Positions 2,862 to 21,068 of a DNA stretch of 25,281 nucleotides are shown in pieces. The position numbers and the translations under genes are program-made. The first letter of the stretch is position 1. The number at the start of each line of letters is the position of its first letter. A model generated the notes under the pieces. It saw only the letters and a program-made list of their open reading frames with translations. It was not told the origin of the DNA and did not search any database. Source of the DNA: a bacterium (lineage in GTDB: Bacteria > SZUA-182 > DTGQ01); contig JBFLZW010000034.1 in assembly GCA_040755755.1 (NCBI GenBank), positions 1-25,281 on the forward strand, given 5' to 3'.

Positions 2862-3476
2862 TTACAGATATTTTGCATAATATTCCACCACCAGGTTCTC
2901 ATCCACGTCCGCCGGGATCTCATCCCTCTGGGGAATTGAGATCAGTTTCCCCTGAAAAGCAGCCCTGTCCACCTCCAAATACGGGATTTTCGGCCGGGAT
3001 GCACTCCTTTCCAGGCCCTCCTGGACAGTAGCGGTTTCCCTGCTTCCTTCTCTCACGGCGATAGTATCCCCTGGCCTGACCGAATATGAGGGGATGCTTG
3101 CTTTCCGGCCGTTTACCGTAATGTGGCCGTGCCCCACCAACTGCCGGGCGGCAAGTCTGGTCGGGGCAAATCCCATTCGATAAACGAGATTGTCCAGACG
3201 CCGCTCAAGAAGCCGCAGGAGATTCTCACCGGCAACCCCTGGCTGACGCATGGCTTTTTCCAGATACCCTCGAAACTGCTTTTCCGAAAGCCAATAAGAA
3301 AACCTCAACTTCTGCTTCTCGGTGAGCCGTTTCTTGTAATCGGTCATCCTGGTTTGACCGGCAGGATGCATTCCGGGCCTTCCACTGCGTTTGAGCAGGG
3401 CACAATTGGCTGATCCGCAGACAGAATAACCCAGGCTTCGGCATATCCTGCATTTTGGACCTATGTAACGTCCCAT
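2862..3476 (-). CDS. rpsD: 30S ribosomal protein S4
   Basis: At 204 residues the protein has the usual S4 length. It opens with MGRYIGPKCRICR; Cys9, Cys12, Cys20 and Cys25 form the zinc-binding N-terminal site of the C+ type of S4. The core EKQKLRF...EKQF...NLLRLLERRLDNLVYRMGFAPTRLAARQLV-GHGHITVNGRK is the S4 RNA-binding domain, and the protein ends in the typical VVEYYAKYL. S4 nucleates 30S assembly on 16S rRNA. A strong Shine-Dalgarno (AAAGGAGG) sits about 10 bp before the ATG. The gene stands alone instead of with rpsM-rpsK-rpoA, next to mobile-element debris, so it may be a second, paralogous copy. Some core positions look unusual (HPAGQTRMTDY, FSYWLSEKQF). Confidence 0.95.
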   Translation of the reverse strand: MGRYIGPKCRICRSLGYSVCGSANCALLKRSGRPGMHPAGQTRMTDYKKRLTEKQKLRFSYWLSEKQFRGYLEKAMRQPGVAGENLLRLLERRLDNLVYRMGFAPTRLAARQLVGHGHITVNGRKASIPSYSVRPGDTIAVREGSRETATVQEGLERSASRPKIPYLEVDRAAFQGKLISIPQRDEIPADVDENLVVEYYAKYL

Positions 3477-3541
3477 TTGCTTAATACCTCCTTTACTACC
3501 GGGCTTATTTTATGGCTTGTGCTTACTTTCCTGTCATATTT

Positions 3542-3570
3542 ATTCTAGCCCTAATTCTTTGTTTTTTCAA
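3542..3570 (-). promoter_or_regulatory. sigma70-type promoter of rpsD
   Basis: On the minus strand TTGAAA (-35, 3565-3570) is followed after exactly 17 bp by TAGAAT (-10, 3542-3547). This predicts a transcript start near 3535 and a leader of about 60 nt before the rpsD ATG. The leader is long enough for the translational autoregulation known for S4, though I see no specific structure. Confidence 0.6.
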
Positions 3571-3645
3571 TAATTTTTTCAGGCAAACCGGGGACTTGTC
3601 CGGATTGCGGGGGGGAGTTACTGGCCGCTGACCCCTGGCCTATGA

Positions 3646-4209
3646 TTATGATAAAGACAGGATAACCGCCTGAATGAACATCCGGTGGGTGAGAAAGAAA
3701 AGCCTGCGGATCTGGAAACCGATCTTTAAGCCTATGGTACCGGAAGAGAGAGGATATCGACCAATCAACCGGTGCATCAGACCGCAAGCCCCTGAGCTTA
3801 CGGCGATAAAAAAACCGGCTGCCCGCCAGGATGTTTTAGAAAGGTTTATGAACCTGTTTTCCTTTTTGATGGCTATGACTTTCCCAAGAATTTGGTCGGA
3901 GTATATAACTTTATCAAAAGTCCTGCTTCCATCTCCCTTGGTAAGAAAGAAAACCGGCTTCCCTTTTCTCTTCCGGATAAGTACTACCCGGTGAACCACG
4001 ATACCGGAACATTGCGGATCGGTGATAACCACTAGATCGCCAATACAAATACGGTCAGTGTTAATTTGGGGAGATGCAACGACTTTATATCCGGGAAAGA
4101 GTAAAGGACACATACTGTAACCGCTTACCGAGAAGCAGAGATTTTGACCGGGCGGTATCAAGCCAGCCTTGATAATATGAATTGCTCTTTCTTTCAGTAC
4201 GTTCACCAT
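3646..4209 (-). CDS. S26/S24-family peptidase (signal peptidase I-like), candidate leader peptidase
   Basis: The N-terminal half has the S26 fold signature. FSVSGYSMCPLLFPGYKVV holds the catalytic Ser of the S-x-M-x-P box, and IGDLVVI and GIVVHRVV follow, then FLTKGDGSRTFD. A His in VVHRVV replaces the usual general-base Lys, as in SipW/archaeal-type signal peptidases. The C-terminal ~80 residues are basic and hydrophobic (LSKTSWRAAGFFIAV, FFLTHRMFIQAVIL) and may hold the protein at the membrane. Neither start has a good ribosome site: I prefer the ATG at 4209, and a TTG at 4230 would add seven residues. It is the last gene of the minus-strand run that starts with the RiPP precursor, so removing the leader peptide is a plausible job. 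That role is inferred from context. Confidence 0.75.
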   Translation of the reverse strand: MVNVLKERAIHIIKAGLIPPGQNLCFSVSGYSMCPLLFPGYKVVASPQINTDRICIGDLVVITDPQCSGIVVHRVVLIRKRKGKPVFFLTKGDGSRTFDKVIYSDQILGKVIAIKKENRFINLSKTSWRAAGFFIAVSSGACGLMHRLIGRYPLSSGTIGLKIGFQIRRLFFLTHRMFIQAVILSLS

Positions 4210-4253
4210 GACCGATCTTGCACCTGTCAAGGTTGAGGAGAAAAGGTATGATT

Positions 4254-4293
4254 CCCTGCCTGCCGCTCAGATCAATCTGAGCGGCAGGCAGGG
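4254..4293. repeat. Perfect 19-bp inverted repeat
   Basis: The arms 4254-4272 and 4275-4293 (CCCTGCCTGCCGCTCAGAT and its exact complement) are separated by 2 bp. The repeat sits between the beta-helix gene and the S26 peptidase gene. No T-run follows, so it is more likely an mRNA-processing, stabilising or attenuating hairpin, or a REP-like element, than a simple terminator. Confidence 0.85.
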
Positions 4294-4330
4294 CAGGGGA
4301 AAGGATGATTTTCAGAAGCTATTCCACAAA

Positions 4331-5923
4331 TTACATCCATAAATACCATTCGGGAATCGAGTACCATAAGGAGAAATAGCAGGGAGGATAGTGGATAAGG
4401 TTTAGCCATAGCAGGTATTGTGGGTATTCCAAGGAGCCGGAATCTCCGGGGCAGCGTTCGCCCGGCATATTTGACGGCGTGGCCGGAGAGACGGGGCCAT
4501 AGAAAGTACTCATGCCTCTGCCATCCACCTCTTCAAGTTGATAATAATACCTGTTCGAGGGGGATGCTGTATCATCGATGTAGGAATACTCGGCATTCAT
4601 CGTAGGCCCGCCGTAAGCCCCAATAGGGGCAGGATTGATTCTGGTGTATTCTCCGCTTTCTTCCTGAGCACGCCAGAGATTGAACCCTGCGGTATCGATT
4701 TCACTGAGCGTGGTCCAGGTGATAATAACGTTTTTCTCCTGTACATCGGCTGAAAATCGACCCAGGCTGACAAGCGTATTTATCTTGTATTCATAAGCCC
4801 CTATATCAGGTAAGGCACTACCGTCACTATCTCCATCCTGGGGTCTTACGATACCATCTTTGTCATCATCGGGTGCCCCCAAAGTCGTACCGGCATCGAT
4901 ACACGGAGAGCCATCCTGGAGATGGAAATCCCCTGATACCGGATCAACGAAGAGGGGATCGGCATCGAGCATGCCATACGAGCCACCCTTGATAACTGAG
5001 TAAGTGACTGTCATGGTAGAGCCGATACCGTCTATTTCCCCATTGTTATTGTTATAAATAATGCAGTTAGTGACAGTCGCGGAGTCACAGTAAATTCCTC
5101 CGCCATTGTGGGGTGCGCTGGCCGAATTTCCATACAGTGTGCAATTGATAACTTTGGTCTGGGTACTCTGGAGGGCATAAATTCCGCCTCCGTTCCCATG
5201 AGCTGTATTTTCGTTAATGACGCAATTGATTATCTGCGGTCTGGAAGAAGATCTGCTGGAGATTCCTCCACCATGTCTAGCTTCATTCGCAAAAAAAGTG
5301 CACCGGCTGATAAGCGGTGAAGCATTGCTGAAGCAATCGATTCCTCCCCCGTAGCCGTTGAGCGCCTTGTTCATGCTGATTATGCAGTTATCAATAGTCG
5401 GTGAACAGTTTCTACCACAGCATATCCCTCCTCCACCGCTGGTTGCCCCGCAGATATTTCCGGTAATAATACAGTTGGCAATTGTTGGTGAAGCAGGACC
5501 CGCACCTTGACCCGATGCTTTATTCATGCAGACAATTCCACCTCCACCGCTGTATTGGTTAAAACCGTTTGTCACCGTAATCCCTTTCAGTGCAGCGCCA
5601 TTTCCCCCTCCCCAGAAAGTGACTGCCGGACTTGTACCTCCTGCATCAATTATCGTGGTTTTTACTGTTTCCAGATCATCCGGGTTTGTACTTCTTACGG
5701 TAATGGCCTTGGAGACAAAATTGATATATTCCCTATACGTTCCCGGAGCGACAATGATTTCGTCTCCATCGTCAGCCGCGTTAATGGCTGACTGAATCTT
5801 GGTATAATCACCAGGTACATGGATTTCTTCTGCAACTGCCCGTGGTACCTGGAGCAATACTATTACCGCTGCAATCATCAATCCCAAAATCCAATTTAAA
5901 GCTAGTTTCAGAAATCTTTCCAT
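4331..5923 (-). CDS. Secreted right-handed beta-helix protein
   Basis: The 530-residue protein begins with a signal peptide (hydrophobic core 12-26, likely cleavage after AVA at about 31). Residues ~33-345 form a parallel beta-helix of the pectate-lyase/NosD type. It opens with IHVPGDYTKIQSAINAADDGDEIIVAPGTY and continues as repeats such as SPTIANCIITGN, SPTIDNCIISMN and SPLISRCTFFAN, with GGGI turns. SPCIDAGTTLG ... DIGAYEY (~335-378) is the usual cap of these proteins. A fibronectin-III-like module (~385-480, VIITWTTLSEIDTAGFNLWRA) follows. The last ~30 residues are strangely aromatic (YPQYLLWLNLIHYPPCYFSLWY). AAAGGAGG precedes the ATG. No catalytic residues are identifiable; substrate binding or polysaccharide cleavage is possible. 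It lies between pqqD-like and peptidase genes, so it may be cotranscribed with the RiPP cluster. Confidence 0.8.
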   Translation of the reverse strand: MERFLKLALNWILGLMIAAVIVLLQVPRAVAEEIHVPGDYTKIQSAINAADDGDEIIVAPGTYREYINFVSKAITVRSTNPDDLETVKTTIIDAGGTSPAVTFWGGGNGAALKGITVTNGFNQYSGGGGIVCMNKASGQGAGPASPTIANCIITGNICGATSGGGGICCGRNCSPTIDNCIISMNKALNGYGGGIDCFSNASPLISRCTFFANEARHGGGISSRSSSRPQIINCVINENTAHGNGGGIYALQSTQTKVINCTLYGNSASAPHNGGGIYCDSATVTNCIIYNNNNGEIDGIGSTMTVTYSVIKGGSYGMLDADPLFVDPVSGDFHLQDGSPCIDAGTTLGAPDDDKDGIVRPQDGDSDGSALPDIGAYEYKINTLVSLGRFSADVQEKNVIITWTTLSEIDTAGFNLWRAQEESGEYTRINPAPIGAYGGPTMNAEYSYIDDTASPSNRYYYQLEEVDGRGMSTFYGPVSPATPSNMPGERCPGDSGSLEYPQYLLWLNLIHYPPCYFSLWYSIPEWYLWM

Positions 5924-6017
5924 CTCGCTTTCCTCCTTTGGCCGTCAGGTTACAGTATATATTTCTCTCCTCATGATTAAGGCTGTTTCATGGCCGGTTC
6001 CCCCCACCCCAAAATGC

Positions 6018-6380
6018 TTAGCCGCTAACGACTCTAACCTGCCTCTCCGTGCTTACTTCATCCTCATCTTGCTTCACGATCATACCCTGAGCTGCGAAAT
6101 CATCGATTATCCTTTGAATATCCTGCTCAACCCTGGCTCCCTCTCTCTCTCCCGGAGAAAGGGAATACATTTCAGCAATAGCTACTGCCATATCTCTGAT
6201 AGAATGCTGGCCATCGCACATCTGCCAGACTTGAAGAGCTGCCTTATTAAGAATATGGACATGCTTCGTATCGGGATTGTATAAAATGGCTTCCCCATCG
6301 AGATCCCGAGCCTCGATCGAATCCTTCCTGCAGGGTGTCACGCCGTCTATCCCACAAGCCCCTTTATTTGGGTTACTCAT
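6018..6380 (-). CDS. PqqD-family RiPP recognition protein
   Basis: The 120-residue protein carries a PqqD domain in its central part. DGEAILYNPDTKHVHILNKAALQVWQMCDGQHSI corresponds to the beta-strand wing and helix, and VEQDIQRIIDDFAAQGMIV to the last helix. PqqD proteins are RiPP recognition elements: they bind the leader of a precursor peptide and present it to a radical SAM enzyme. I chose the ATG at 6380 because AAGGAG lies 8 bp upstream. A GTG at 6389 overlaps that ribosome site and is less likely. The start is about 15 bp after the HPr-kinase-like stop, which indicates a tightly packed operon. The radical SAM protein has its own N-terminal PqqD domain, so this cluster has two such elements. 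Confidence 0.88.
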   Translation of the reverse strand: MSNPNKGACGIDGVTPCRKDSIEARDLDGEAILYNPDTKHVHILNKAALQVWQMCDGQHSIRDMAVAIAEMYSLSPGEREGARVEQDIQRIIDDFAAQGMIVKQDEDEVSTERQVRVVSG

Positions 6381-6395
6381 CCTGTTCACTCCTTT

Positions 6396-7730
6396 TCATG
6401 GCTCACCACTATCCTCTTTTTCTCTCCTCCAGTTCCTTTCTCCAGGCTCCTGTCTAGTCAATCCTTCCTGTTCCGATCCTCCATCCGCCAGTCCAAGTAT
6501 CAAATCAGCCATTTTCTCAAGCTCCCCCGCAGTGATGCGGTAGCAGTCCACACCTTTCAGGGTCCGGCTCAGTTCAAGCAGTATTGAGGGCACACCACCC
6601 TGAGCCTCACCCAGGAGAGATGATGTCCATCCGCCCCGGAAGCTTCGTAAAAGCTCTCTTATGGCTATTGACTTTGGAATTTTCTCAAGATGCGGCTCCT
6701 GGGAATAATCAACTGCTCCCTGTTCGCTTTGGGCTATGTGAACTAATGCCACCCGATGCTTACGGCAAAGATCTTCTATCCGGGGCAGGAGAAAGTGTCC
6801 CCGCCTTCCGATAAGCCTTACCGTGGGAACGGGATTTTCCCGGTATTTCTCACATTCCTCCACGCCGGGGAGAGCTCTCAGATCATTGATCATCCCATCT
6901 TCAAATCGGTCGGTACTGATATAGAGAGATTTTTTATTCTCTCCCGGTAAATCACCTGGACGAGCGCTCACCTCACCTGACAGTGCCCCCGCTTTCAATG
7001 AAGGCCCCTTCGAGGGCGAAGATAAACAGATCAGGAATTTCAACGGGCAAGGACTGCTCACCCTGGCTTCAGGGATATCGATCAGATTCACCAGCATTTT
7101 TCTTCCACCAGGAATTGCCGAAAAAGAGTCAATGGTAACTTTACGAAAATCTTTGAACAGCTCCAATGCACTTTGCCGCAAACCAAGAGCCCTGGGGAAG
7201 GGATATATCAGCCAGTCCTTCCGGCTGATGCAGGCTATGTCATCGGTGAAAAAATGAAATCCCCGTTTGATAAGCTTCATAGTCAGGGTACTTTTGCCCT
7301 GGCAGGCAGCACCCAGGACCATGATACCCTGTTCCTTCCAGGATACAGCAGCGGCATGGAAGATAACGTGTGACCGCACTCTGGCAATGATTGAGTTGGT
7401 AATGACTGAATAGACATAAGCAGGCAACAGGTGAGATTGCGGACAGGGATAAATCCTCTCATCTGCGTAGATAAAAGGATTTTCCGAAATTTCTGGCTCG
7501 TTAATCACGTAATAGATGCCCTGTCCATTGTTTCTTTCACCAGGAGCCTGCAAAGATACATCAGGATACATCTTCCGGAAGTAGATCAACGATTCAGGCT
7601 GGTTCGTGCTTATAGTAAACGCAGTGTCAAAAAATCGGAAGGTGTACCTGACATGTGCTGCAGACGCTGCCGATGCTAAGCCGGTAAAGTCAACCACTGC
7701 TGCTTCCCTCATCTTCCCCGCCGACTCCAT
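6396..7730 (-). CDS. HPr kinase-like P-loop protein of a RiPP cluster
   Basis: The 444-residue protein has a P-loop at ~140-148 (GAACQGKST), preceded by the FHAAAV segment (125-129) typical of HprK-like proteins. FFTDDIACI (~160-168) follows as the DD motif, and then PFPRALGLR. The N-terminal ~110 residues resemble the variable front domain of the RiPP-associated HprK relatives. In lasso-peptide clusters, homologous kinases phosphorylate a Ser of the precursor. Here the partner is a radical SAM enzyme instead, so the substrate is unknown, and Ser46 or Ser51 of the precursor core are candidates. It overlaps the radical SAM gene end by 41 bp, which implies translational coupling. A second ATG (7712) is possible, and neither start has a strong ribosome site. 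Confidence 0.8.
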   Translation of the reverse strand: MESAGKMREAAVVDFTGLASAASAAHVRYTFRFFDTAFTISTNQPESLIYFRKMYPDVSLQAPGERNNGQGIYYVINEPEISENPFIYADERIYPCPQSHLLPAYVYSVITNSIIARVRSHVIFHAAAVSWKEQGIMVLGAACQGKSTLTMKLIKRGFHFFTDDIACISRKDWLIYPFPRALGLRQSALELFKDFRKVTIDSFSAIPGGRKMLVNLIDIPEARVSSPCPLKFLICLSSPSKGPSLKAGALSGEVSARPGDLPGENKKSLYISTDRFEDGMINDLRALPGVEECEKYRENPVPTVRLIGRRGHFLLPRIEDLCRKHRVALVHIAQSEQGAVDYSQEPHLEKIPKSIAIRELLRSFRGGWTSSLLGEAQGGVPSILLELSRTLKGVDCYRITAGELEKMADLILGLADGGSEQEGLTRQEPGERNWRREKEDSGEP

Positions 7731-9090
7731 TCGAAAATACCTTGGCCTTTTGGGCTGCCCTGCTGAAAATAGCTTGCGGATAAAACCTGTTCCTCAATTC
7801 ACACAGATCGTCAACCGCTTGAAAAGTTCCCTTGAGCCGATAAACATTCCCAGAGCACCCGCCCTGACAAAAATTTTTCCACAGGCACTGCCGGCATTGA
7901 GGAATGGTACTTTTGCGGTTTAAGCACATCTCCCGCGTTCTTACCATGATCGGCGACTCGATGGCCTGACATAAATCCACTTCCAAAACATTGCCGAGCC
8001 TGAACGGCGGTTCCATGAGCAATGGGCAGGGATAGATATCGCCTTGAGCATCGATAATCAGCATTTGCCCTATCTGGCACCATGAGGTCTGGCCAGGCGG
8101 ATGATGGAGTACAAAGCCCTGAAATCCTGGATTGATACGCAATTCTGGAAATTCGACAACTGCATCTTGATACAGGTAGCTGTAGAATTGAGCATAATCC
8201 TGACTGGATGGGGCCAGTTCATCCCAATATAAGCTGGCCGTGCCCATATTCTGGAGAGGAATAAACTTTACCTCGGAGATACCTTTCTCTTGAGCCAGTT
8301 TCAGCAGAGACGGAATATGGTCGAGATTATTTTTGCTGACTGTAGCGCACAAGCTGACTTTTTCTTGAGCCCCCAGTTTGCCCAAAAGATCAACAGCCAT
8401 CATGGTCCTGGCAAAAGCACCCTTTCCCCGGATATGGTCATGAATGCTCTCGCTGGGGCCATCCAGGCTGATCTGTATCTTCAGATCGAGATCATCGATA
8501 AGCCTGGCTTCCCACTCGGTAATCAGCGTTGCATTGGTAGCCAAAACTGTTTTGATCCTCCGAGCGGCATAAGACAGAATTGCAGGCAGGTCTTCCCGCA
8601 GAATCGGTTCCCCTCCGGTTATATTCAAAGATCCCGCTCTTGCCTCTTTGGCTTCATCGATAATTCTGAATATCTGCTCCGTGGTGAGATAGTCCTTTCT
8701 TTTTGACCCGTCAGTTACTCCGCAATGCCGGCACCGCAAATTACAATTTTCTGTAATATGCAGGTCCACCTTTTTGAGAGGAAAATCTCTCTCCCCGGAT
8801 ATTCCTGCAGGCTGGTCCATATCAGAGAGAGCAAGAAATCCGCTCTGAACAAGTCGGCTAATAAAACATTGAACATCCGAAAGCACTTGCTGAAAGGGTA
8901 ATCCATATCTCTGACATAAGATATGGGAAATTTGCCCTACACTATGACGGTTATCGCACAGCGAAAAGGTCGTAAACCCGACCTCATTGACCACCATCCA
9001 GGCAGGTCTGTCTCCCTGCACCAGGATATACTGCCGCCTGTTATCAGTTGAAATACCGACCGCCCTTCTCTGAGGCTTAAGCTCTATCAC
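7690..9090 (-). CDS. PqqD-domain/radical SAM/SPASM peptide maturase
   Basis: The 466 residues hold three modules. Residues ~1-90 are a PqqD/RRE domain (YILVQGDRPAWMVVNEVG, FISRLVQSGFLAL). The radical SAM core (~105-320) has the 4Fe-4S motif C116xxxC120xxC123, the GGEP motif (ITGGEPILREDL, ~157) and ISLDG (~207). The SPASM domain has C338-x11-G-x4-C355 and C399-x2-C402-x5-C408-x3-C412 with C430, matching the consensus for two auxiliary Fe-S clusters. Such enzymes install thioether, C-C or epimerised residues in RiPPs. The start is the GTG at 9090, because a stop codon lies just upstream in frame; GAAGG immediately before it is a close, weak ribosome site. It is placed between precursor and kinase and is the probable key maturase. 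Confidence 0.93.
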   Translation of the reverse strand: MIELKPQRRAVGISTDNRRQYILVQGDRPAWMVVNEVGFTTFSLCDNRHSVGQISHILCQRYGLPFQQVLSDVQCFISRLVQSGFLALSDMDQPAGISGERDFPLKKVDLHITENCNLRCRHCGVTDGSKRKDYLTTEQIFRIIDEAKEARAGSLNITGGEPILREDLPAILSYAARRIKTVLATNATLITEWEARLIDDLDLKIQISLDGPSESIHDHIRGKGAFARTMMAVDLLGKLGAQEKVSLCATVSKNNLDHIPSLLKLAQEKGISEVKFIPLQNMGTASLYWDELAPSSQDYAQFYSYLYQDAVVEFPELRINPGFQGFVLHHPPGQTSWCQIGQMLIIDAQGDIYPCPLLMEPPFRLGNVLEVDLCQAIESPIMVRTREMCLNRKSTIPQCRQCLWKNFCQGGCSGNVYRLKGTFQAVDDLCELRNRFYPQAIFSRAAQKAKVFSNGVGGEDEGSSSG

Positions 9091-9143
9091 CTTCTATCAC
9101 CATTGATATCTGGATGCAGCTCGAAATTCAAAAAGCGTAACTA

Positions 9144-9286
9144 CTCAGGCACAAAGGGGCAAAGGTACAGAGGCACAAAGTTACCTTTGCCTCTGTGCTG
9201 CTCAACTTCCCGATTACATTGTTGATTATTCATTGTGTCTTCTTTTCCCCTTTGTGCCTTTGTCTCTCTGTGCCTTTGTGCCTGAG
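9144..9286. repeat. Inverted octamer-repeat arrays between precursor and maturase
   Basis: Four degenerate 8-bp units (GCACAAAG, GGGCAAAG, GTACAGAG, GCACAAAG; 9149-9180) face four reverse-complement units (CTTTGTGC, CTTTGTCT, CTCTGTGC, CTTTGTGC; 9250-9281). The outer 14 bp, CTCAGGCACAAAGG (9144-9157) and its complement (9273-9286), are perfect. Another complementary segment at 9183-9198 allows alternative folds. It occupies the whole precursor-maturase gap and may attenuate transcription or protect the upstream precursor message. Confidence 0.85.
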
Positions 9287-9299
9287 ATGATAGGAGTAT

Positions 9300-9464
9300 T
9301 TAGCAGATTACACTACCCGCGAAACCACTACAGGCCTGAACTGACATTCCCTCCATCTCTTCAAGTAATTCCTGTTCAGAATAAGTAATCATAGTCGGGG
9401 GTTCATAAGTGGACAGAGATTGGTCGTTATTGTCGAAGTGCTTTTTTTTCTCCTCTGTTTTCAT
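9300..9464 (-). CDS. RiPP precursor peptide (radical SAM/PqqD type)
   Basis: The gene encodes 54 residues. The ATG at 9464 is set by AAAGGAGG 8 bp upstream; the frame stays open further up but without another site. Residues 1-19 are charged and polar. A leader motif follows, YEPPTMITYSEQELLEEM (20-37), with YxxP and a Leu-rich acidic stretch as in leaders bound by PqqD/RRE domains. EGMSVQACSGFAGSVIC (38-54) is small and hydrophobic, has cysteines at 45 and 54, serines at 41, 46 and 51, and ends in Cys. The leader/core boundary is probably near Gly39. It is encoded directly upstream of the maturase on the same strand. I do not recognise a named precursor family; its being a RiPP substrate is inferred from size, composition and neighbours. 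Confidence 0.78.
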   Translation of the reverse strand: MKTEEKKKHFDNNDQSLSTYEPPTMITYSEQELLEEMEGMSVQACSGFAGSVIC

Positions 9465-9666
9465 AAAACTATCCTCCTTTGAGCTGTTACTACCATCCTG
9501 GTTAGTAAAAAAAGAAAAAATTACTATGGCTCTTCTTTTAAGCAAGCAAGTAATATACCAGATTTTATGTCAGTTACTGAATAAAACCGCTTTTCTCCGG
9601 CAATAATCGTTAGCAGCTTGTATTTTTAGAGAATTAATCTCGATTTGGTATTTACCCGAAGTCTGA

Positions 9667-9694
9667 ATTATACATTTCACTTTTACAATATCAA
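9667..9694 (-). promoter_or_regulatory. sigma70-type promoter of the RiPP operon
   Basis: On the minus strand TTGATA (9689-9694) and a perfect TATAAT (9667-9672) are spaced by 16 bp. This predicts a start near 9660 and a leader of about 195 nt before the precursor ATG. The surrounding DNA is clearly AT-rich (about 9600-9780). It separates the RiPP run from the C25 peptidase gene upstream. Confidence 0.6.
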
Positions 9695-9823
9695 ATTATT
9701 TCTAATTTAGAATTTAAGTATATTATAAAAATAATAATAATCCCCTATGAAACAACTTGCACATGAGATGAAAAGTTTTGCCTAGTTGATTAGTTCTCGG
9801 AGCATTCTTCCGGTCGGTGCACC

Positions 9824-12800
9824 CTATCGGGTAGAGTCATTGATTTTCTCTGCCCATGGCCCTGGCCGCCAGTTACTCCTGGCCTCTCCCATCCCAATGC
9901 TGTACCCCTGGCTGCTCTCGATCTGATAGTCATCTCCGGCAGTCCGGGTAAAAAAAGAGTAGCATCCCTGCCACTTCCCATTCCTTTTATTGTATCCTGT
10001 CACACTGAAAGCATAACCTGCCCCGATCTCTTGGAGAAGATCATAAGAGGTGTAATTGCTCAGAGGAGCGGGGAAATTCAGCAGGTTGTAGCCTGCACGT
10101 AAGGTATATTGAGGGTAGAAAGCTGTGCAGGGAAGAGATACTGCCCGATCACTGTCGCCCCCGGCATAGAGAAGATAACCCTGTTCGGGAAGAATTTCAA
10201 AATTTGCCCCGGTGAAAGATTCACCATCCCATACTCCTGTCTGCCACTCTCCCTTGGCGGGATTATATCCACAAGTCTTCCTGATCGTAACACTCTGTCT
10301 GCTCAGATATTCCAGAAAATCTCCCGCCCTCCAGGGAAGAGTCAGCCCACCAGGCAGACCTAAGAGGTTACTGCCCGGCTTGATGGTGATTTGTGCACCC
10401 CTGCTGACCCCATATTTCCCCTGCAGTCTGGTAGCAGGATCCCCAAAGAGAAGAAAATTTTGTGCCATATCCCCTGAAATTCGATGCCGTGCATAGGCAT
10501 TTATCCGGGCCGCTGTCGTACAGACCCCCAGGATATTGTTCCCCTGTTGAAATATCTGGTCAAATAATTCCCCGGCCAAATTTTTTTGCTCGGTAGGATA
10601 GCTCACACTAACGGGAGCCCAGCAGGCAAGAGCGCCTTTGTTTTCAGCCCGCAGCAGCTCTTCAGCCAGACAGCAATCCAGTTTGGGATGAGGGAAAAAG
10701 CCGTTGAGGCAGGTCAGGAGGATAAAGAAGCCTGGCTGGCCGATATTTTCCAGCTTCTGGACATCGCCTGATTGGAATAACGCCGATCCCCATTTATCGA
10801 CGTTGCCATGACCACAATAGACCGTGATCAATTGTCCTCCGGAGATTTTTCTCCTTACCTCCTCGGCAGCCGCTTCATTGGTGGCATAGCTGGCTGCATA
10901 GACCTTCTGGATGTCGAGGCTCCAGGGTATAAAGTCCTGGGCAAGACCATCGGCCATGCTTTTAAATTCCGGATTCTCCTTGTCAGCCACGAAAAGAGCC
11001 TTCCGGTGCCAGGGCTGATCTCCCTGCTGTTCATAAGAGATAATTTTTTCGACAACTGACTGGACCTCCACCGGAGTCCGAACCGGGATTCTGCCCAGAA
11101 ACATATCCGGCAGGATATCATCTCCATCGACACAAACAAACCAGTTATCATTCGGAGTCTCGCCAAGATCGGCGGTAAAATACACGTGGGTGGGAATATA
11201 ATTTCCTCTGCCGGTCTCATAGTTGTCCAGATAATCCATGTTCGCATCGCCGACCAGGAGGACATACAAAGGGGCCGGAGGAGTCCAGTTCTGGTAGCTA
11301 TACCGCACAAAATCCTGAACAGCCCGCGGATCAAAGATCCCGGAGGAAAACTCATCATAAATGTCGTGAATATCCACGATCTTGACCCGCAATCCTTGAG
11401 CTTTCCGGTAGTCAGCCAGGGGCAGAATGCTGTCCCGGAAATCAGGATGAGTGATGATCAGGTAATCTGCACCGTTATCACTGGACCGCAGATCGTCCTC
11501 TTCCCCCGGCCTGGCAGCAGGTGATTCAAGAGAAAGCGGCACTTTTTCAGCCTGAGTACTCAGAGCGGCGTAGCGCCTGCTGCCGCTGAATTCATCGCTG
11601 AATTTTATCCGGTAAGTTGAACCTCCTTCGGTTTCAATCGAAGCAGGGCGTATTTTCAGAACATTTTCAGGGTCGGTAACATTAAAGACAGAAATTTCCT
11701 TTTCCATAAACCCTTGAACATCAAAATTACACCTTCCAGCCCCCTGACCCCCCTGAGCCGTGAACAGCAACTGGTGGTTGTGGGCTATAAAGGGTCGTGG
11801 ATAATCCAATTCGATCCAATTGACCAGGATGGTATCGATTGCAGCTCCGGTATCACCCGGGGCTTTGATGGTCAGGGTGTTGCTCCCCTCCTGTAAAAGG
11901 GTGCTGGAAACAGTGATTCGCCTTCGAAATTCAGTCTGTCCATCCCAGGAAAAATCATCGATCACCGACCCGTTCAGGGTTATGATCACATGGTGATCCG
12001 GTTTGGTGGCCGCGATATCCGTTTTCCCCTGAAAGAGCAGTCCTAAAGTGGCCCTTTCTCCATCAGCAGAGGAAAGCCGGGGCAGAGAGAATAAAAAATC
12101 CTCTGCTGCCGGTGCTGTGATCTGCTTCCAGAACCAGCGGTCTTTTTCCAGGGGCCCGGGAAGTATCTGCCAGTAAACATGATTTTCTTCCCGGTGGAGA
12201 TGATCGATAAAATGATCCGCCGCTGGTTCCGAAGGCGGGGAATTTTCATCCTGCTCCTTAATTCGTATTCCCGCTCCTGCCTCTTTCTGCTCCAGCCAAT
12301 AAATGTTTTTCCGGGTAAATGGTGAATTCATGGCTGCAGCCCAGAAAGTTATCCGGTCACCCGGGTCAAACAGGCCATCCTCAATTCCGGATATACTGAC
12401 CGGAACCTCCCGTCCCTGACAGTACATGGCCAGTTTTTGCGGGATTACCAGATTCAGGTCCCAGCCTGCGCGCTGTAAATCCGCTCCTGAAACACGATAG
12501 AGCCCTTCCTGTTCAAGAGAGATTTTCAGGGGAGAAAGCCGTGAATCGGAAATCCTCTTCCGGCTCCTTTCCTTCCGCTCCGCCAGAGGCGGAATAATGA
12601 ATACATCAGGATACTCCCTGACCAGCGGATAATTGATCAGGGTATTTTCCATCACCTGCTCAAATCCACAGAAATGCCGGTTTTCAGGTATCCATCCCTG
12701 AGATTGGCTGATTTCCCGGCTTCTGATCTGAGGAGCATCCTTGAAGGTAATCTTCAGTTTGACCCGCCGGTAAAGGCGCACCTTTCGTAAGGCTGGGTTG

Positions 12801-13345
12801 TATTGAACAGGGGCGATGGACAGGCGGGCAATTTTCCGATGTCTGAGGTATCCGGCAGGATCAACAAGGAAGGGTTTCTCCGGAATCCATTGATTTTGGG
12901 CATAACAGGCCCGATCGATAGTAAATTCTCCGCGAATGAAGGAGGTCGCATTCCCGGTAACCATAACCCTCCTCGGAGCGGGATGGATCAGCAGAGACTC
13001 TAAAATATCCACTTCCTGTTCCAGTACTTCCAGGATCAATTCAGCCGACGCAGGTATGGCCATCAGAAAGCCCTGGACCGGCAGTTGAGGTTTTCCCTCA
13101 TCCTGGGTCAGGCCAGTTCCGGACATGGTCAGGAACTGATATACGATCCCGCTTTCCTCCTGCTCCTCAATGCGAAGCTGCGGGGAAGAAAATTCCATAA
13201 CCATTCCCCCTGTCCCTGCCTCAAGTACTTTCAATCCTCCGGACTGAGAGGCATTGGCGCAGGGAGAGCAGGAGCAGGAAAAGAGAAGAAAACAGAATGA
13301 AAAAAACAGAGCTGTATAGGTTTTTGTTTTCTTATAGCATTTCAT
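9824..13345 (-). CDS. Exported C25 (gingipain-like) cysteine peptidase
   Basis: I start at the ATG at 13345 (1173 residues), because MKCYKKTKTYTALFFSFCFL is a clear export signal. A frame extension to 13438 would bury it. LLFSC at 20-24 could be a lipobox. Residues ~35-250 resemble the gingipain propeptide (LPVQGFLMAIPASAELILEV). The C25 domain spans ~627-975 (DYLIITHPDFRDSILPLADYRKAQ, VLLVGDANMDY, FLGRIPVRTP), with catalytic His846 in VYCGHGN and Cys879 in LLTCLNGF. The C-terminal ~190 residues have GWNLI-like modules (SNLLGLPGG, AGYNLLNFPAP) and no obvious type IX sorting tail. Family members are secreted endopeptidases. The substrate is unknown. No strong ribosome site precedes the ATG. 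Confidence 0.88.
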   Translation of the reverse strand: MKCYKKTKTYTALFFSFCFLLFSCSCSPCANASQSGGLKVLEAGTGGMVMEFSSPQLRIEEQEESGIVYQFLTMSGTGLTQDEGKPQLPVQGFLMAIPASAELILEVLEQEVDILESLLIHPAPRRVMVTGNATSFIRGEFTIDRACYAQNQWIPEKPFLVDPAGYLRHRKIARLSIAPVQYNPALRKVRLYRRVKLKITFKDAPQIRSREISQSQGWIPENRHFCGFEQVMENTLINYPLVREYPDVFIIPPLAERKERSRKRISDSRLSPLKISLEQEGLYRVSGADLQRAGWDLNLVIPQKLAMYCQGREVPVSISGIEDGLFDPGDRITFWAAAMNSPFTRKNIYWLEQKEAGAGIRIKEQDENSPPSEPAADHFIDHLHREENHVYWQILPGPLEKDRWFWKQITAPAAEDFLFSLPRLSSADGERATLGLLFQGKTDIAATKPDHHVIITLNGSVIDDFSWDGQTEFRRRITVSSTLLQEGSNTLTIKAPGDTGAAIDTILVNWIELDYPRPFIAHNHQLLFTAQGGQGAGRCNFDVQGFMEKEISVFNVTDPENVLKIRPASIETEGGSTYRIKFSDEFSGSRRYAALSTQAEKVPLSLESPAARPGEEDDLRSSDNGADYLIITHPDFRDSILPLADYRKAQGLRVKIVDIHDIYDEFSSGIFDPRAVQDFVRYSYQNWTPPAPLYVLLVGDANMDYLDNYETGRGNYIPTHVYFTADLGETPNDNWFVCVDGDDILPDMFLGRIPVRTPVEVQSVVEKIISYEQQGDQPWHRKALFVADKENPEFKSMADGLAQDFIPWSLDIQKVYAASYATNEAAAEEVRRKISGGQLITVYCGHGNVDKWGSALFQSGDVQKLENIGQPGFFILLTCLNGFFPHPKLDCCLAEELLRAENKGALACWAPVSVSYPTEQKNLAGELFDQIFQQGNNILGVCTTAARINAYARHRISGDMAQNFLLFGDPATRLQGKYGVSRGAQITIKPGSNLLGLPGGLTLPWRAGDFLEYLSRQSVTIRKTCGYNPAKGEWQTGVWDGESFTGANFEILPEQGYLLYAGGDSDRAVSLPCTAFYPQYTLRAGYNLLNFPAPLSNYTSYDLLQEIGAGYAFSVTGYNKRNGKWQGCYSFFTRTAGDDYQIESSQGYSIGMGEARSNWRPGPWAEKINDSTR

Positions 13346-13385
13346 GCCAATATTTTCTTGCGGGTACAACTCTGAGCTGAAACAG

Positions 13386-13425
13386 CCCGGTAATAACCGG
13401 GGGCACATCCACAGAATGTGCCCCC
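13386..13425 (-). terminator. Two overlapping hairpins between the protease genes
   Basis: GGGGGCACAT/ATGTGCCCCC (13399-13408 with 13416-13425) is a perfect 10-bp stem with a 7-nt loop. CCCGGT/ACCGGG (13386-13401) overlaps it by 3 bp, so the two stems cannot form fully together. They lie 70-110 bp past the subtilisin-like stop and just before the C25 gene. A terminator or attenuator is likely, but there is no clean T-run. Confidence 0.5.
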
Positions 13426-13495
13426 TCACATCTCTCAAAGCGAATTTACCATACCATCAATTCCATAACTTATGGGTATGCCTTACCAGCGAAGA

Positions 13496-16438
13496 TTAAG
13501 GCCAGCCGACTCCAGCAAGTGGAACGATAACTGCTGCTTCATCGGGATCATTGGAGAAGATAGCCATAGAATAGGTGAAGGTGCCTCCTTCTTCGGGGCT
13601 AAAGCTGAGCGTGATCGTGATGGATCCACCCGGGGCCAGCTCGTAAGGAGGAAGACCTCCCTCGATGGAGAATGGAGCGTCGATATCAATATAGTCTATT
13701 CTGAGGCTGGCATTTCCCTTGTTCTGGATGGTCAACTCTTTCTCGTAAGAACCGCCGACAGCGACTTCTCCGAAATCAATCAGGGCTCCCGGCAGATCGA
13801 TGTCAGGTGCAAGCATGCCCCAGCCATAGACGGAGATGCTGCACATGCCACCGGTACTCTTCACGGTCAGACTGGCATAATCTGATCCCTCGTTGATGGG
13901 AGTATACCTTACCATAATTTTTCCATATTGCCCGGCAGGAATGTTGAGACCACCGGAAGGCAGCTTGGTGGCCAGCTTGTATTCCGCGGTTCCATTGAGA
14001 GCAACCGAACTGACGTTCAGAGGAATATTTCCCTTATTATACAGGTACACAGGCTGATCCTTGCTCTTTCCTTTCAGTACGCAGCCAAAGTCAAGATAAT
14101 CAGGTTCCACACTGAGTTGAGGATAGGCAGCGTCTGAGGCCACAAGCTCGAGTGAGTAGTTGTTCCTCAGGGAAGAGGTATTAAAGCTGAACTGGCTGGC
14201 GTTCTCTCCGTCTTTCTGTGCACCTATGGTGGCGGAGCTTCCAAAATCATAGGGTGTAGGCTGAGAAGCGCCAAGCACCACGTCTTTATACCGGTATTCG
14301 ATTTCGGGTCTATCTTCATGGAATACCATCTGGAAAGTAACCCCATCGGTACCCGGAAGCGGGTTGTAATTCTCATCGAGCAGGTTGTAATGGGGCATGT
14401 CGTTCCACTGAATGATTAACTCCTGGTTCGGGGCAGAACCGTTTATCTGCCAGTAAACGTCCTGACCCGTGCCTGCCTCCGGTCGTGGACAGAGATCATC
14501 CCAGAACGGGACCATGAGATTACCATAATATACATTTGGAATCGGCATGTTGTCCCAGTCTATCCAGGTATCGATACTCACACCACCATTATCGAACACA
14601 AAGAGGTAGTCGGTTGGCTCTCCATAGATCGTGAGAGGGAAGGGAAGAGGGTATATCAATTGATAACCATCATCCACCAGATTCAGTGGAGCTCCTGTAG
14701 CCGAAATATCGGTGAACTCATGGGGAATCTCGCCGATCGTATACCGGGGCGGCAGAAGGGAAACAGAAACGTTAATCGTTTGGCTCAGGCTGCCGCTCTT
14801 GAAGATCAGCGCGAAGTCACCTATCCGTGGAGGTGTCCATCGGGCTGAGAAGACCCCATCCTGGGCGACCTTATCGGGGAAAATACCGTTATCCAGAAGA
14901 TTAACGGTAGTACTGTTGATCTTGCAGGTTACCGGCCCTACTGGATTAGCTCCCAGGATATCATGTACTTCAAGGTCAATTGGACTATAGAGAGCCCCTC
15001 TCATCCCGTTAGCCGGGCTCAGGATCGCAAAGAGCCGCGCATCAGCGGGAGAGGTCAATGCTCTTTCTGCATCGATTCTTTTGCCGGTAACGGAATGACC
15101 ATCAAGTGTCGGGATGGAATCGCCGGTTGACAAAATGAGATTTCTGATGGCCTTCCAGCTCCTGGTCTGATTCTGTGCCTTGAGAAGGGCTGCCAAACCG
15201 GAGACATGAGGCGCTGCCATAGACGTCCCCGACCATAAGTCATAGGGATATTCCTCAGTTGACCAGCAATACGGAAGCAGATATGAGCAGGTGCTCAGGA
15301 TACTGTCACCCGGAGCTCCGACATCGACCGTTCTTTTGCCGGAATTTGAGTACCAGGTGAGCTCATCATTGTGGTCCGTAGCGGCAACCGAAATAATGTT
15401 CATAAGGTCATAGCTTGCAGGATAGGCAGGATCCGAGTCATTATCCAATCCCTCGTTACCCGCTGCTGCAATGAACAGGATCCCTTCACTCTGGAGGGCC
15501 TTGATAGCATCATACAAGGCTCTCGAATAACCGCCCCCACCCCAGGAGTTATTGGCGGCAATGATGTTCACCCCGGCGCGTTTGCGGGCAACGATATACT
15601 CGAGACAAAGGATGGCATCATCCATCCAGCCATAACCCTCACTGTTCAGGAACTTGGTGGCCATGATGGATACATTCCAGTTGACACCACTGATACCCTG
15701 CGAATTATTGCCGCAGGCACCGATGATGCCTGCCACATGAGTACCATGCCCCATATCGTCCATTGGGTCTCCGGCGTATAACGCCCCGCCTATATAATAA
15801 TCAACCACATTTATCCCATGAATATCGTCAATATATCCGTTGTTATCATCGTCAAGACCGTTACCGGGGATTTCACTCTGATTGACCCACATATTTCCGG
15901 CAAGATCCGGATGATTGTAATCAACGCCCGTATCAACCGTCGCCACTACCACGGCGTGGGAACCTGTCTTGCGGTCCCATGCCCCTGGTGCATTAATGTC
16001 TGCATCCGGTGTCCCGCCAGTCTGTCCAACATTATCGAGTGCCCACTGATAGCCGAAATATTCATCATCAGGTATGGTCAGCGCAGAGAGTTTATAGTTC
16101 GGCTCTGCCCATTCTACATCCGAGCTCGCAGCTAAGGTGCCTAATGATTGTGTAAACCTGACACCATCAACCTTGAGCACATAGAAGTTAGGGATGATGA
16201 CGGATCTTTGATTCTTTACTGAACTCGATGTATATAAGACCTGTGCACCAATACTTTTCGTTATTGAATTAATACGGATCACATTTGCACTTGGTTTGAA
16301 CCTGACCAGTATTTCCCCTTCCTTGACCTCATGCCCCTGGAATGTCGCCTTCTTTGAATAGGCTAAATCCGCCGTCAGGGAAATCATCAGGGTAAATACC
16401 AATACGCATAATAGACCGTGAGTCATTGACTTTCTCAT
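13496..16438 (-). CDS. Exported subtilisin-like serine peptidase with Hydin-like repeats
   Basis: The 980-residue protein has a signal peptide (1-~28). A fervidolysin-type propeptide follows (~38-120, GEILVRFKP ... SSDVEWAEPNYKLSAL), then an S8 domain (~128-465). The catalytic residues are Asp169 (ATVDTGVDYNHPDL), His231 (GHGTHVAG) and Ser406 (GTSMAAPHVSG), with the oxyanion Asn in NNSWGG. Residues ~490-555 resemble a beta-sandwich, and ~560-760 resemble nidogen-like or other adhesion modules (FVFDNGGVSIDTWIDWDNMPIP). Two choice-of-anchor-D/ASPM-SPD-2-Hydin-like repeats follow (LSVEPDYLDFGCVLKG; IDFGEVAVGGSYEKELTIQNKGNA). The protein probably acts outside the cell or on its surface. GGAGG lies 9 bp before the ATG. 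It runs codirectionally with the C25 gene; cotranscription is uncertain because hairpins lie between them. Confidence 0.92.
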   Translation of the reverse strand: MRKSMTHGLLCVLVFTLMISLTADLAYSKKATFQGHEVKEGEILVRFKPSANVIRINSITKSIGAQVLYTSSSVKNQRSVIIPNFYVLKVDGVRFTQSLGTLAASSDVEWAEPNYKLSALTIPDDEYFGYQWALDNVGQTGGTPDADINAPGAWDRKTGSHAVVVATVDTGVDYNHPDLAGNMWVNQSEIPGNGLDDDNNGYIDDIHGINVVDYYIGGALYAGDPMDDMGHGTHVAGIIGACGNNSQGISGVNWNVSIMATKFLNSEGYGWMDDAILCLEYIVARKRAGVNIIAANNSWGGGGYSRALYDAIKALQSEGILFIAAAGNEGLDNDSDPAYPASYDLMNIISVAATDHNDELTWYSNSGKRTVDVGAPGDSILSTCSYLLPYCWSTEEYPYDLWSGTSMAAPHVSGLAALLKAQNQTRSWKAIRNLILSTGDSIPTLDGHSVTGKRIDAERALTSPADARLFAILSPANGMRGALYSPIDLEVHDILGANPVGPVTCKINSTTVNLLDNGIFPDKVAQDGVFSARWTPPRIGDFALIFKSGSLSQTINVSVSLLPPRYTIGEIPHEFTDISATGAPLNLVDDGYQLIYPLPFPLTIYGEPTDYLFVFDNGGVSIDTWIDWDNMPIPNVYYGNLMVPFWDDLCPRPEAGTGQDVYWQINGSAPNQELIIQWNDMPHYNLLDENYNPLPGTDGVTFQMVFHEDRPEIEYRYKDVVLGASQPTPYDFGSSATIGAQKDGENASQFSFNTSSLRNNYSLELVASDAAYPQLSVEPDYLDFGCVLKGKSKDQPVYLYNKGNIPLNVSSVALNGTAEYKLATKLPSGGLNIPAGQYGKIMVRYTPINEGSDYASLTVKSTGGMCSISVYGWGMLAPDIDLPGALIDFGEVAVGGSYEKELTIQNKGNASLRIDYIDIDAPFSIEGGLPPYELAPGGSITITLSFSPEEGGTFTYSMAIFSNDPDEAAVIVPLAGVGWP

Positions 16439-18572: not shown

Positions 18573-21068
18573 GTGGCTAATCACCTTCCTGAATCCTACT
18601 ATGATGAGCCGTGCAGGCCGCGTCAGACATTTGGTACCATAGCCGTATTTCTGGCTCTCCTCGATATTAATCTGGGCAATATGCTCTATTTTGGACATCC
18701 TGCTGCCAGGATTGCTTCCTGTTTCCTCGGGGTGATTTTACTTGCCTCGCTTGTTCAGACAAACTGGCAGGTCTGGAAAAGGAACCTGTGGACCGCTTCC
18801 ATTCTGACTGCAGCAGGCTTTGCCTGGGTAGTGCTTTCCCTTGATTCAAAAGAGGCAGGGTTTATCGGGCTGGTCTGTGCTCTCGGATGTTTGACAATCC
18901 CTGGCCCTGGCAAAGATATCGAAGGCCATATCCCGGTGTTCATGACCGCCACCGGCCTGGTAGCTTTATTCGATTATGGATACAGCCATACCTCCCTGAT
19001 CTGGTATGGAGTGAAGCAGGCAAACCACCTTATGATGCGCCTGATCGAGATCGTGACCGGCCAGCCCATGCCCTTTGGGCATCATGCTTCCGGTTTTTTT
19101 CTTCTGGTCCCCTTTGTCGGTTATCTCGCCGCTCTCATCCTGCACGCTCACCGGCCAGGGAAAAGCAAGCCCGCAGGTAAGCTGATTATCGCCGGTATCT
19201 TTACCCTGTTCATCATCCTGGTCTGCCAGGCACTCTATCTTATAGGCCACCAGACTATCTTGTCCCGCATCCAGTTCAGAGCGTACCAGACTTTGTTCCG
19301 GCTTACCCCTTTTGAGACTCACTGGCTTGCTTTTCTGATATTCCTGGTTCCTTTCTCCCTGTACCGGCGAAGGCTCACGGTCTTGTCGGCATTGACCGGA
19401 TCGGCGACCCCACAGGATAAGCGCAAAAAAAGTCTGAGGTTTTCGGTGAAGTGGCTGACCGCCCTGGTTTTCATCCTCCTGGTGTCACTGCCTCTGGGGA
19501 ATAGATGGAGAATTTTCCATCCTTTGCCTTCCCGGGGGAAAACGGTCCTGATCTACGATAATTTAGACTGGTCTGTTCCTGAGTTTGGCAACTATGGCCA
19601 TCGCAGCGGGGGAATGTTCGGTAATTTGCCGGATTTCCTGACCTCTCTCGGCTACTCGGTCCGGCTGAGCAGAGAGCTTGGTGAGGCCGGGCTTTCGGAC
19701 GTTGACCTTCTGGTTATCATCAACCTCATGGAACGGCTTGATCAACCGGCCAGGGAGGCGGTCCATCGCTATGTTGCGGCAGGAGGAAGCCTGCTGGTCA
19801 TGGGTGATCATACCGGCTTTGGCTTTATCCGGGAGCCCTTCAATGACCTTTTACAACCGGCGGCCATTTCCTTCCGGTTTGACAGTGCCCGATCCCTCAT
19901 TCCATCCTGGCAGAATTGCATGGAAATACGGCCCCATCGCATAACCGAACATCTGGCCAGAGAAAGCGATGTCCAGATCTGGACCGGTGCCTCATTGGAA
20001 ACCCGCTACCCTGCAAGGCCGGTTCTGATCGGAGTCAGGGCTTTTTCCGATGCCGGCAACAAGGCCAACGGCCAGGATGGTTTCCTGGGCGATCTTCAGT
20101 ACGGGAAATCGGAATGGCTGGGAGATGTTGTCCTGGCAGCCGAAGCCAGGGTCGGGCAGGGGAAGGTTCTGGTATTCGGCGATACTTCCAGCCTGCAAAA
20201 TGGAAGCCTGCCCTATTGCCGCCAGTTTATCCAGGATATGTTCTTCTGGCTGATGGAAAAGCCCGGACCAGGACCGGAAATCGGCAGGCACATTCACCGG
20301 ATACTCTGGTTTTTCTTCCTGCTCCTTCTGGCCCTGCTCTGGTATGAGCACTCGTCCGCAGCCGTGCTCTGGCTGGTCTGCGCTCTATACCTGTTTCAGG
20401 CACCTGTCCGTCTGTTTCCCCAACCCGACCACCCTCCCCGCAGCACGGAAAAAGCAAGGATCGCTTACATTGATAACTCCCACGGTGAGTATTTCGATGT
20501 AACCGGCTGGCAAAAAAATTCTATCGATGGATTGGCCTACAACCTGATGAGAAACCATTATGCTCCCTTTATCGCCAGTGTGCTTGATCCTGCTCTGGTG
20601 AACAATTCAGCGATGTGGGTCTTCATCAGTCCAACCAGAAGATTTTCCCCGAAAGAGGTACGGATCCTGCACCGCTTCATGGCTCAGGGGGGGACGATTG
20701 TGTGGTCCGCAGGCTGGATGGTCCGGGAATCGAGCCTTTCTTTCCTCAAAGGGCTTGGATTGTCCTTCATCAATCTTCCCCTGGGACCGGTCAGGGAGAG
20801 CTATGGGGAGCATGAGGTCCGGTTTCAGGATGTCTGGCCTGTTCGGATCGACGGGCAGGTCAGGGGACGAACGAGTGTCCTGGTCCAAAAGTACGGCTAC
20901 CCTCTGGCTGTTTTCCAGCGATATGGCCGGGGAGGGATCCTGCTCATATCGGACAGTCGCTTCTTGCTCAACCAGAACCTTGAAAATATTGATAACTTTT
21001 ACCATGAAGGTAACATCCTTTTTCTCCGGGATGCACTGAAGAAAATTTCGCGGGGATGGGCAGGGTGA
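18573..21068 (+). CDS. Large membrane protein with two amidotransferase-like domains
   Basis: The 831-residue protein starts at a GTG with only a distant AAAGG. About eight hydrophobic segments lie within residues 20-310 (for example 20-35, 46-62, 171-190, 203-222, 250-265 and 292-308). A first GATase-1-like (DUF4350-like) domain follows at ~322-575 (KTVLIYDNLDW, DVDLLVIINLMERL, GGSLLVMGDHTGFG with GDHT at 411-414, VLVFGDTSSLQN). More membrane segments lie at ~585-620. A second domain runs ~640-815 (RIAYIDNSHGEY, MWVFISPTRRFS, GGTIVWSAGW, GGILLISDSRFL). This layout resembles uncharacterised DUF4350-type membrane proteins linked to extracellular assembly or gliding systems. No catalytic Cys nucleophile is visible, so a ligand-binding role is likelier than amidotransfer. 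The 3' end overlaps the next gene by 13 bp. Confidence 0.7.
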   Translation: MANHLPESYYDEPCRPRQTFGTIAVFLALLDINLGNMLYFGHPAARIASCFLGVILLASLVQTNWQVWKRNLWTASILTAAGFAWVVLSLDSKEAGFIGLVCALGCLTIPGPGKDIEGHIPVFMTATGLVALFDYGYSHTSLIWYGVKQANHLMMRLIEIVTGQPMPFGHHASGFFLLVPFVGYLAALILHAHRPGKSKPAGKLIIAGIFTLFIILVCQALYLIGHQTILSRIQFRAYQTLFRLTPFETHWLAFLIFLVPFSLYRRRLTVLSALTGSATPQDKRKKSLRFSVKWLTALVFILLVSLPLGNRWRIFHPLPSRGKTVLIYDNLDWSVPEFGNYGHRSGGMFGNLPDFLTSLGYSVRLSRELGEAGLSDVDLLVIINLMERLDQPAREAVHRYVAAGGSLLVMGDHTGFGFIREPFNDLLQPAAISFRFDSARSLIPSWQNCMEIRPHRITEHLARESDVQIWTGASLETRYPARPVLIGVRAFSDAGNKANGQDGFLGDLQYGKSEWLGDVVLAAEARVGQGKVLVFGDTSSLQNGSLPYCRQFIQDMFFWLMEKPGPGPEIGRHIHRILWFFFLLLLALLWYEHSSAAVLWLVCALYLFQAPVRLFPQPDHPPRSTEKARIAYIDNSHGEYFDVTGWQKNSIDGLAYNLMRNHYAPFIASVLDPALVNNSAMWVFISPTRRFSPKEVRILHRFMAQGGTIVWSAGWMVRESSLSFLKGLGLSFINLPLGPVRESYGEHEVRFQDVWPVRIDGQVRGRTSVLVQKYGYPLAVFQRYGRGGILLISDSRFLLNQNLENIDNFYHEGNILFLRDALKKISRGWAG

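Follow-up and report, generated by a model that had tools for sequence, protein, structure and literature searches.

A RiPP maturation system of an apparently undescribed type that probably serves secreted FN3-domain proteins

The LPP family of RiPPs (linear polyphosphorylated peptides; LppA/K/B/S/D/N, PMC13381572) provides a precedent for combining an RRE, an HPrK-like kinase, an archaeal-type signal peptidase I (SpI) and an NTP transferase, in which a PqqD protein and an archaeal-type S26 protease form the published leader-peptidase pair (PMC13381572). Paeninodin- and pseudomycoidin-type lasso peptides also rely on an HPrK-like kinase, with essential His, Lys, Asp and Asp/Glu residues, and PsmN adds hexoses to the phospho-Ser (PMC9266682). 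What LPP and paeninodin peptides do biologically is stated to be unknown (PMC13381572). Radical SAM/SPASM enzymes are found in RRE-fused thioether maturases such as CteB of the SCIFF system and in the SynChlorMet cassette (ScmA-F). C25 enzymes are known from type IX C-terminal sorting, where transpeptidation by PorU is documented (PMC4560394, PMC8545088); a review of RiPP leader proteases makes no mention of a C25 peptidase (PMC10885120), and the terms radical SAM and C25 are absent from the text of the LPP report (PMC13381572).

The locus analyzed here lies in a bacterial contig of the GTDB lineage SZUA-182; DTGQ01, and the whole stretch of 25,281 nucleotides is referred to as the window. All six minus-strand genes that a preliminary description had named were found in place from ORFs and Pfam/NCBIfam matches, and are listed here with the neighboring C25 gene and their internal features.

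9300..9464, minus strand: precursor peptide gene, 54 aa, SD sequence AAAGGAGG, homologues at other loci
9396-9407, 9330-9332 and ~9303-9344, minus strand: YEPP leader motif, invariant Cys45 and predicted core of the precursor, respectively
9091..9299, minus strand: intergenic stretch from precursor to radical SAM gene, 209 nt with a strong hairpin (-64.5 kcal/mol)
7690..9090, minus strand: radical SAM/SPASM maturase with N-terminal PqqD-type RRE (Pfam: PqqD 34.6, Radical_SAM 83.3, SPASM 30.9 bits)
8833..9030, minus strand: PqqD-type RRE domain fused to the maturase (Pfam PF05402, 34.6 bits)
6396..7730, minus strand: HPrK-like kinase (HprK_rel_A 53.9 bits, under the cut-off of 200; alignments; HprK and PEPCK fold matches)
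6018..6389, minus strand: free PqqD-type RRE protein (Pfam PqqD 39.8 bits; alternative start ATG at 6380)
4331..5923, minus strand: right-handed beta-helix protein, secreted, whose C-terminal part is an FN3-like domain followed by an aromatic tail
4484..4798, minus strand: FN3-like domain of the beta-helix protein (AlphaFold pLDDT 88, FN3 fold matches; adjacency statistics)
4254..4293, minus strand: 18-pair perfect inverted repeat between beta-helix and S26 genes
3646..4230, minus strand: S26-family protease, closest to archaeal-type signal peptidase I (TIGR02228 43.4 bits, cut-off 51.85; Ser39/His80/Asp100 and Asp106)
9824..13438, minus strand: exported peptidase of the C25 (gingipain/PorU) family, catalytic residues His877 and Cys910 (Pfam Peptidase_C25 289.8 bits, propeptide also matched); translation probably begins near 13342

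The assignment of all six genes to a single promoter finds no support beyond chance: the best sigma70-like site lies at 9694-9667 (11/12), but such sites are no commoner in the window than in shuffled sequence (13 vs 12.7). Given the spacings along the operon (209, -41, 6, 94 and 100 bp) and the 18-pair hairpin ahead of it, the S26 gene may form a separate transcript. The 209-nt spacer hairpin is a possible attenuator; the corresponding spacer of a paralogous locus on contig C4 of the same genome likewise forms a hairpin, followed by a T run. No Rfam family was detected in the window. Directly upstream of the C25 gene lies a subtilisin-like protease with choice-of-anchor D and X domains (13496-16438), and a similar long ORF occupies the matching position in G001, a sister species of the same genus. 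Two plus-strand multi-membrane proteins stand in tandem at 18573-23455, the second weakly similar to GldG.

Relatives were found by an alignment-based scan of genome contigs; a single-protein scan of the contigs returned none, and a plasmid search yielded distant radical SAM proteins only. Apart from the window's own, the comparison genomes are mostly draft assemblies. The gene set does return as a unit in other genomes, a point that the preliminary description had put forward for checking, but the six-gene unit given there is incomplete, since it omits the C25 peptidase, which is part of the conserved block. This block consists of the RRE-radical SAM/SPASM maturase, the HPrK-like kinase and the C25 peptidase, to which precursor, S26 and nucleotidyltransferase genes are variably attached, and it occurs in the phylum of the window and in a second, small one (that of genome G042), with scattered cases among Acidobacteriota. 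The window's own genome carries a second copy with its own precursor on contig C4 (radical SAM 52% and kinase 47% identical), and G001 shows the identical six-gene order with the C25 gene upstream. The succession radical SAM-HPrK-C25 is seen on C4, in G004 and at Acidobacteriota L033, L035, L036, L119, L122, L123 and L134, the three genes are likewise consecutive wherever the locus is complete in the G042 phylum, and the C25 gene adjoins the HPrK gene in nearly all relatives. Holophagaceae relatives present the order FN3 protein, precursor, radical SAM, HPrK, C25, S26 and nucleotidyltransferase (PF14907), the last of which the window lacks. Free PqqD homologues are found in G001, G003, G008 and the G042 phylum. 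The maturase is present in all four genomes examined of the G042 phylum; it is rare among Acidobacteriota (4/396 sampled genomes) and occurs in 4/93 genomes of the class of G060. The window contains no transporter, as had been reported, and ABC genes do occur at the relatives' loci L035 and L033.

Concerning the enzymes, the CxxxCxxC motif and the seven SPASM Cys of the maturase are invariant across homologues, and its profile aligns full length with PDB 5wgg (E 7e-31), the CteB thioether maturase. The two PqqD domains claimed earlier, one fused and one free, are both supported by Pfam (34.6 and 39.8 bits). Kinase alignments show conserved His125, Lys146 and Asp163, with Asp or Glu at position 164, and the kinase model matches HprK and PEPCK folds. 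In the S26 protease Ser, His and a KGD motif are common to five homologues; because of the LppS precedent in the LPP family, it is likely to act as the leader peptidase. The C25 peptidase has its catalytic dyad, with GHG (His877) and Cys910 invariant in 13 homologues, most of which show signal-peptide-like or lipobox-like N-termini as judged by eye, and it scores best against PorU models (257 bits, below cut-off).

A precursor model seeded with nine maturase-linked precursors recovers 34 precursors in 15 of 19 genomes, and a motif scan adds two. Among 38 precursors compared, a YxxP-type motif occurs in 37, Ser or Thr right after the invariant Cys in 36 and a second Cys in 34; an SD motif precedes all 30 tested. 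A fixed Cys-Cys linkage in the core was considered and dropped, given the four precursors in which the second Cys is absent. Of the 37 precursors that allow the measurement, 35 have the invariant Cys 23 residues from the leader Tyr, and those of the window and G001 have it at 25. The window leader reads YEPPTMITYSEQELLEEMEGM, to be compared with the family consensus YxPPxIxxYTSxEILExxGPALTC. All these precursors have a short core, which is nearly constant within the G042 phylum (SCTGFGGSASC and close variants). The maturase gene adjoins the precursor in every complete locus with a linked precursor, except for the C240 locus of G003, where the gene lies elsewhere. The preliminary description had made its case depend on conservation of the precursor frame, and in other genomes homologues do lie immediately 5' of the maturase gene. 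Between the window and G001 the precursors differ at 83% of synonymous and 19% of non-synonymous sites (pS 0.83, pN 0.19); therefore, the frame is translated and under purifying selection.

The secreted beta-helix protein, described earlier as embedded in the operon, is indeed present and secreted, but its relevance lies in the C-terminal FN3-like domain, which pairs with precursors elsewhere. Genomes of the G042 phylum carry no precursor next to the enzyme cluster; the model finds dispersed precursors instead (5, 5, 8 and 2 per genome), all 20 of which adjoin a same-strand gene for a secreted FN3-domain protein, against ~0.7 expected from the summed per-precursor chances. Precursor and FN3 model seeds overlap at several loci; since the seeds of both models exclude the G042 phylum, its 20 precursors are a fair test of adjacency. 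Taking all precursors together, an FN3 domain lies within 3.5 kb in 28/34, always on the same strand and in 24 of the 28 directly 5' of the precursor, where 0.8 would be expected from the FN3 domain count per genome. The other domains of the partner proteins differ (beta-helix, papain-like C1, C25-like), the FN3 domain alone being common to them. As for the remaining cases, the G078 precursor has no FN3 neighbor, two precursors lie at contig ends, the neighbor in G007 looks degenerate, and in the window and G001 the FN3 gene is 4.5 to 5 kb from the precursor, within the operon. Within the G042 phylum, roughly one FN3 protein in two lacks a recognized precursor alongside.

A search of FN3 protein tails across lineages revealed no universal C-terminal sorting signal: the window's genus has aromatic tails and Holophagae dockerin-like ones, while those of the G042 phylum often terminate in Arg/Lys. 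Tails rich in Trp, Tyr and Phe (10 to 15 of the last 40 residues) occur in 7/7 FN3 proteins examined from G000 and G001, among them those at window 4334-4483, at 11817-11933 of L020 and in the L117 and L028 proteins; other lineages differ, and the aromatic tail is possibly a lineage-specific C-terminal signal. The FN3 proteins of G003 and G004 (L160, L188, L191) end in VGSCFLSIFFQN, LGPCFLESVK and GGCFIKILGR, which are reminiscent of the CFI-box C-terminal motif, with no such NCBIfam match.

How does this locus compare with the systems described? With LPP it shares a YxxP leader (of the [Y/W]xxP type) with a discrete RRE, an HPrK-like kinase with the His-Lys-Asp-Asp residues (Asp/Glu at 164), an archaeal-type S26 leader peptidase with the Ser-His-Asp residues of SpI (TIGR02228 below its cut-off, at 43.4 bits against 51.85), NTP transferase and ABC genes in the window's relatives, and, in the window, the lack of a lasso cyclase. 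Beyond the LPP parts, it has a radical SAM/SPASM enzyme fused to an RRE, a C25 peptidase and FN3 proteins as partners, and it is not in Bacillota. The window leader is without the HQxIxFETxxS part of the LPP precursor motif (YxxPxVLxHQxIxFETxxS), and a maturase adjoins the precursor, where LPPs are linear phosphorylated products made with no further primary enzyme. Paeninodin- and pseudomycoidin-type clusters have in common with it the HPrK-like kinase, NTP transferase, PqqD-type RRE and YxxP-like leader, and differ in that the present system has a Cys core, a radical SAM enzyme and no adjacent lasso cyclase or transglutaminase-like B2 peptidase; both are absent among the window ORFs, the former (asparagine-synthetase-like) as had been claimed. 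The radical SAM/SPASM maturase with RRE and the Cys-containing core agree with sactipeptides and ranthipeptides, and the combination of RRE, radical SAM and seven-Cys SPASM with the CteB/SCIFF maturases (5wgg), but the precursor is unrelated to the six-Cys SCIFF peptide and the SCIFF maturase model gives 74 against a cut-off of 425. SynChlorMet has similar PqqD, HPrK-related and radical SAM/SPASM parts; here, however, there is one radical SAM gene and not two, and every model stays far under its cut-off (ScmE 99/400, ScmD 34/100). The same is true of HprK_rel_A (54/200), PqqD_rel_X (28/35), GeoRSP (101/400) and MftC (152/265 bits). Type IX sorting resembles the system in its C25 enzyme and in its many secreted proteins sharing a C-terminal beta-sandwich domain; the FN3 domain, however, fails to match a T9SS CTD model, and the precursor genes are extra.

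Every NCBIfam system scores below its cut-off, no NCBIfam model exists for the precursor family, and literature searches on radical SAM enzymes together with HPrK/PqqD or gingipain/C25 turned up no match to the present system; apparently no described RiPP class accommodates it. The preliminary proposal of an undescribed RiPP-type system with precursor, RRE-radical SAM, HPrK-like kinase, PqqD and S26 is thereby upheld, with recurrence of the genes, a conserved precursor and no characterized class that matches. Its emphasis on an unusual mix needs qualification: the combination is unmatched, but the pair of PqqD and archaeal-type S26 was already known from LPP (PMC13381572).

Two further clusters were noticed. 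Contig C83 of the same genome (43000-54000, L022) carries at 3947-10830 another RiPP-like cluster, with no C25, comprising a nucleotidyltransferase, PqqD, radical SAM/SPASM, a YEQP precursor (MEQKK...ACCKSNAC...), a secreted Ig-like protein with terminal repeated YQPWSSTSS, a weak HPrK-like protein and, on the opposite strand, a weak S26-like one. Contig C120 of G061 (L121) has at 3177-9750 a SynChlorMet-like cluster of PqqD, two radical SAM genes, an HPrK/S26-like fusion and an ABC transporter, with a Cys/Gly/Thr-rich precursor bearing a YETP leader.

We propose, with a probability of roughly 60%, that the locus encodes a RiPP maturation system of undescribed type that serves secreted FN3-domain proteins, best read as a hybrid of radical-SAM RiPPs and phospho-peptide (LPP/paeninodin) modules. 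The fused RRE would bind the YxxP leader, and the radical SAM enzyme would modify the core at the invariant Cys, most likely with a thioether, while the kinase would phosphorylate the adjacent Ser/Thr. The free PqqD protein could then present the precursor to the S26 peptidase for leader removal, after which the mature product would be exported and, outside the cell, the C25 peptidase would process the peptide, the partner protein or both. Because in several related bacteria one enzyme set serves many precursor genes, each beside an FN3-protein gene, the peptide probably acts together with these secreted proteins; the diversity of partner domains and the near-constant core fit one common product. 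Counted against the proposal are that FN3-like domains are common and in the G042 phylum often stand without a recognized precursor, the G078 precursor lacking FN3, the precursors without a second Cys, the FN3 distance in the window and G001, and the absence of nucleotidyltransferase and transporter from the window.

The same genes might instead make an ordinary secreted natural product, an antimicrobial or a signal, with FN3 proteins as frequent neighbors in regions rich in secreted proteins. RiPP enzymes, an S26 leader peptidase, nearby ABC genes (L035, L033) and the patchy spread in Acidobacteriota all suit such a product, but a diversifying antibiotic would hardly be encoded by numerous precursors per genome whose core scarcely varies, and the tight same-strand pairing of precursors with FN3 genes and the retention of the system in 4/4 genomes of the G042 phylum make this account rather unlikely. 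More doubtful still is cell-surface sorting, a many-to-one scheme like that of sortases in which a separately encoded RiPP would serve as the tag and the C25 enzyme would join or anchor this peptide to the FN3-domain cargo, much as PorU attaches A-LPS to cargo of the T9SS. It would account for an exported C25 enzyme closest to PorU models, for varied cargo with a single common C-terminal domain and for many precursors per enzyme cluster; however, no conserved cleavage motif follows the FN3 domain of the cargo, SprA/Sov of the T9SS matched in 0/13 genomes (control genomes gave no match either), and the C25 enzyme may be simply a protease.

The PqqD domains, the short constant core and the best-scoring NCBIfam model for the maturase (MftC of mycofactocin, 151.8 bits, cut-off 265) would suggest that the peptide gives rise to a redox cofactor or prosthetic group, in the manner of PQQ or mycofactocin. 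The mycofactocin core has a C-terminal Val-Tyr and that of PQQ a Glu/Tyr pair, neither of which is found in the present core, and the maturase aligns full length with 5wgg too, so that we regard a cofactor as very improbable.

A final point concerns the meaning of a RiPP system that serves secreted FN3-domain proteins. It unites two RiPP logics described apart, radical SAM maturation and the phospho-peptide route with HPrK, RRE and S26, brings in a C25 peptidase and links the peptide with a defined set of secreted proteins. With the peptide gene beside that of its probable partner, a role in surface or secreted-protein biology becomes directly testable, and if it were true that the C25 enzyme joins peptide and protein, this would be categorically new.
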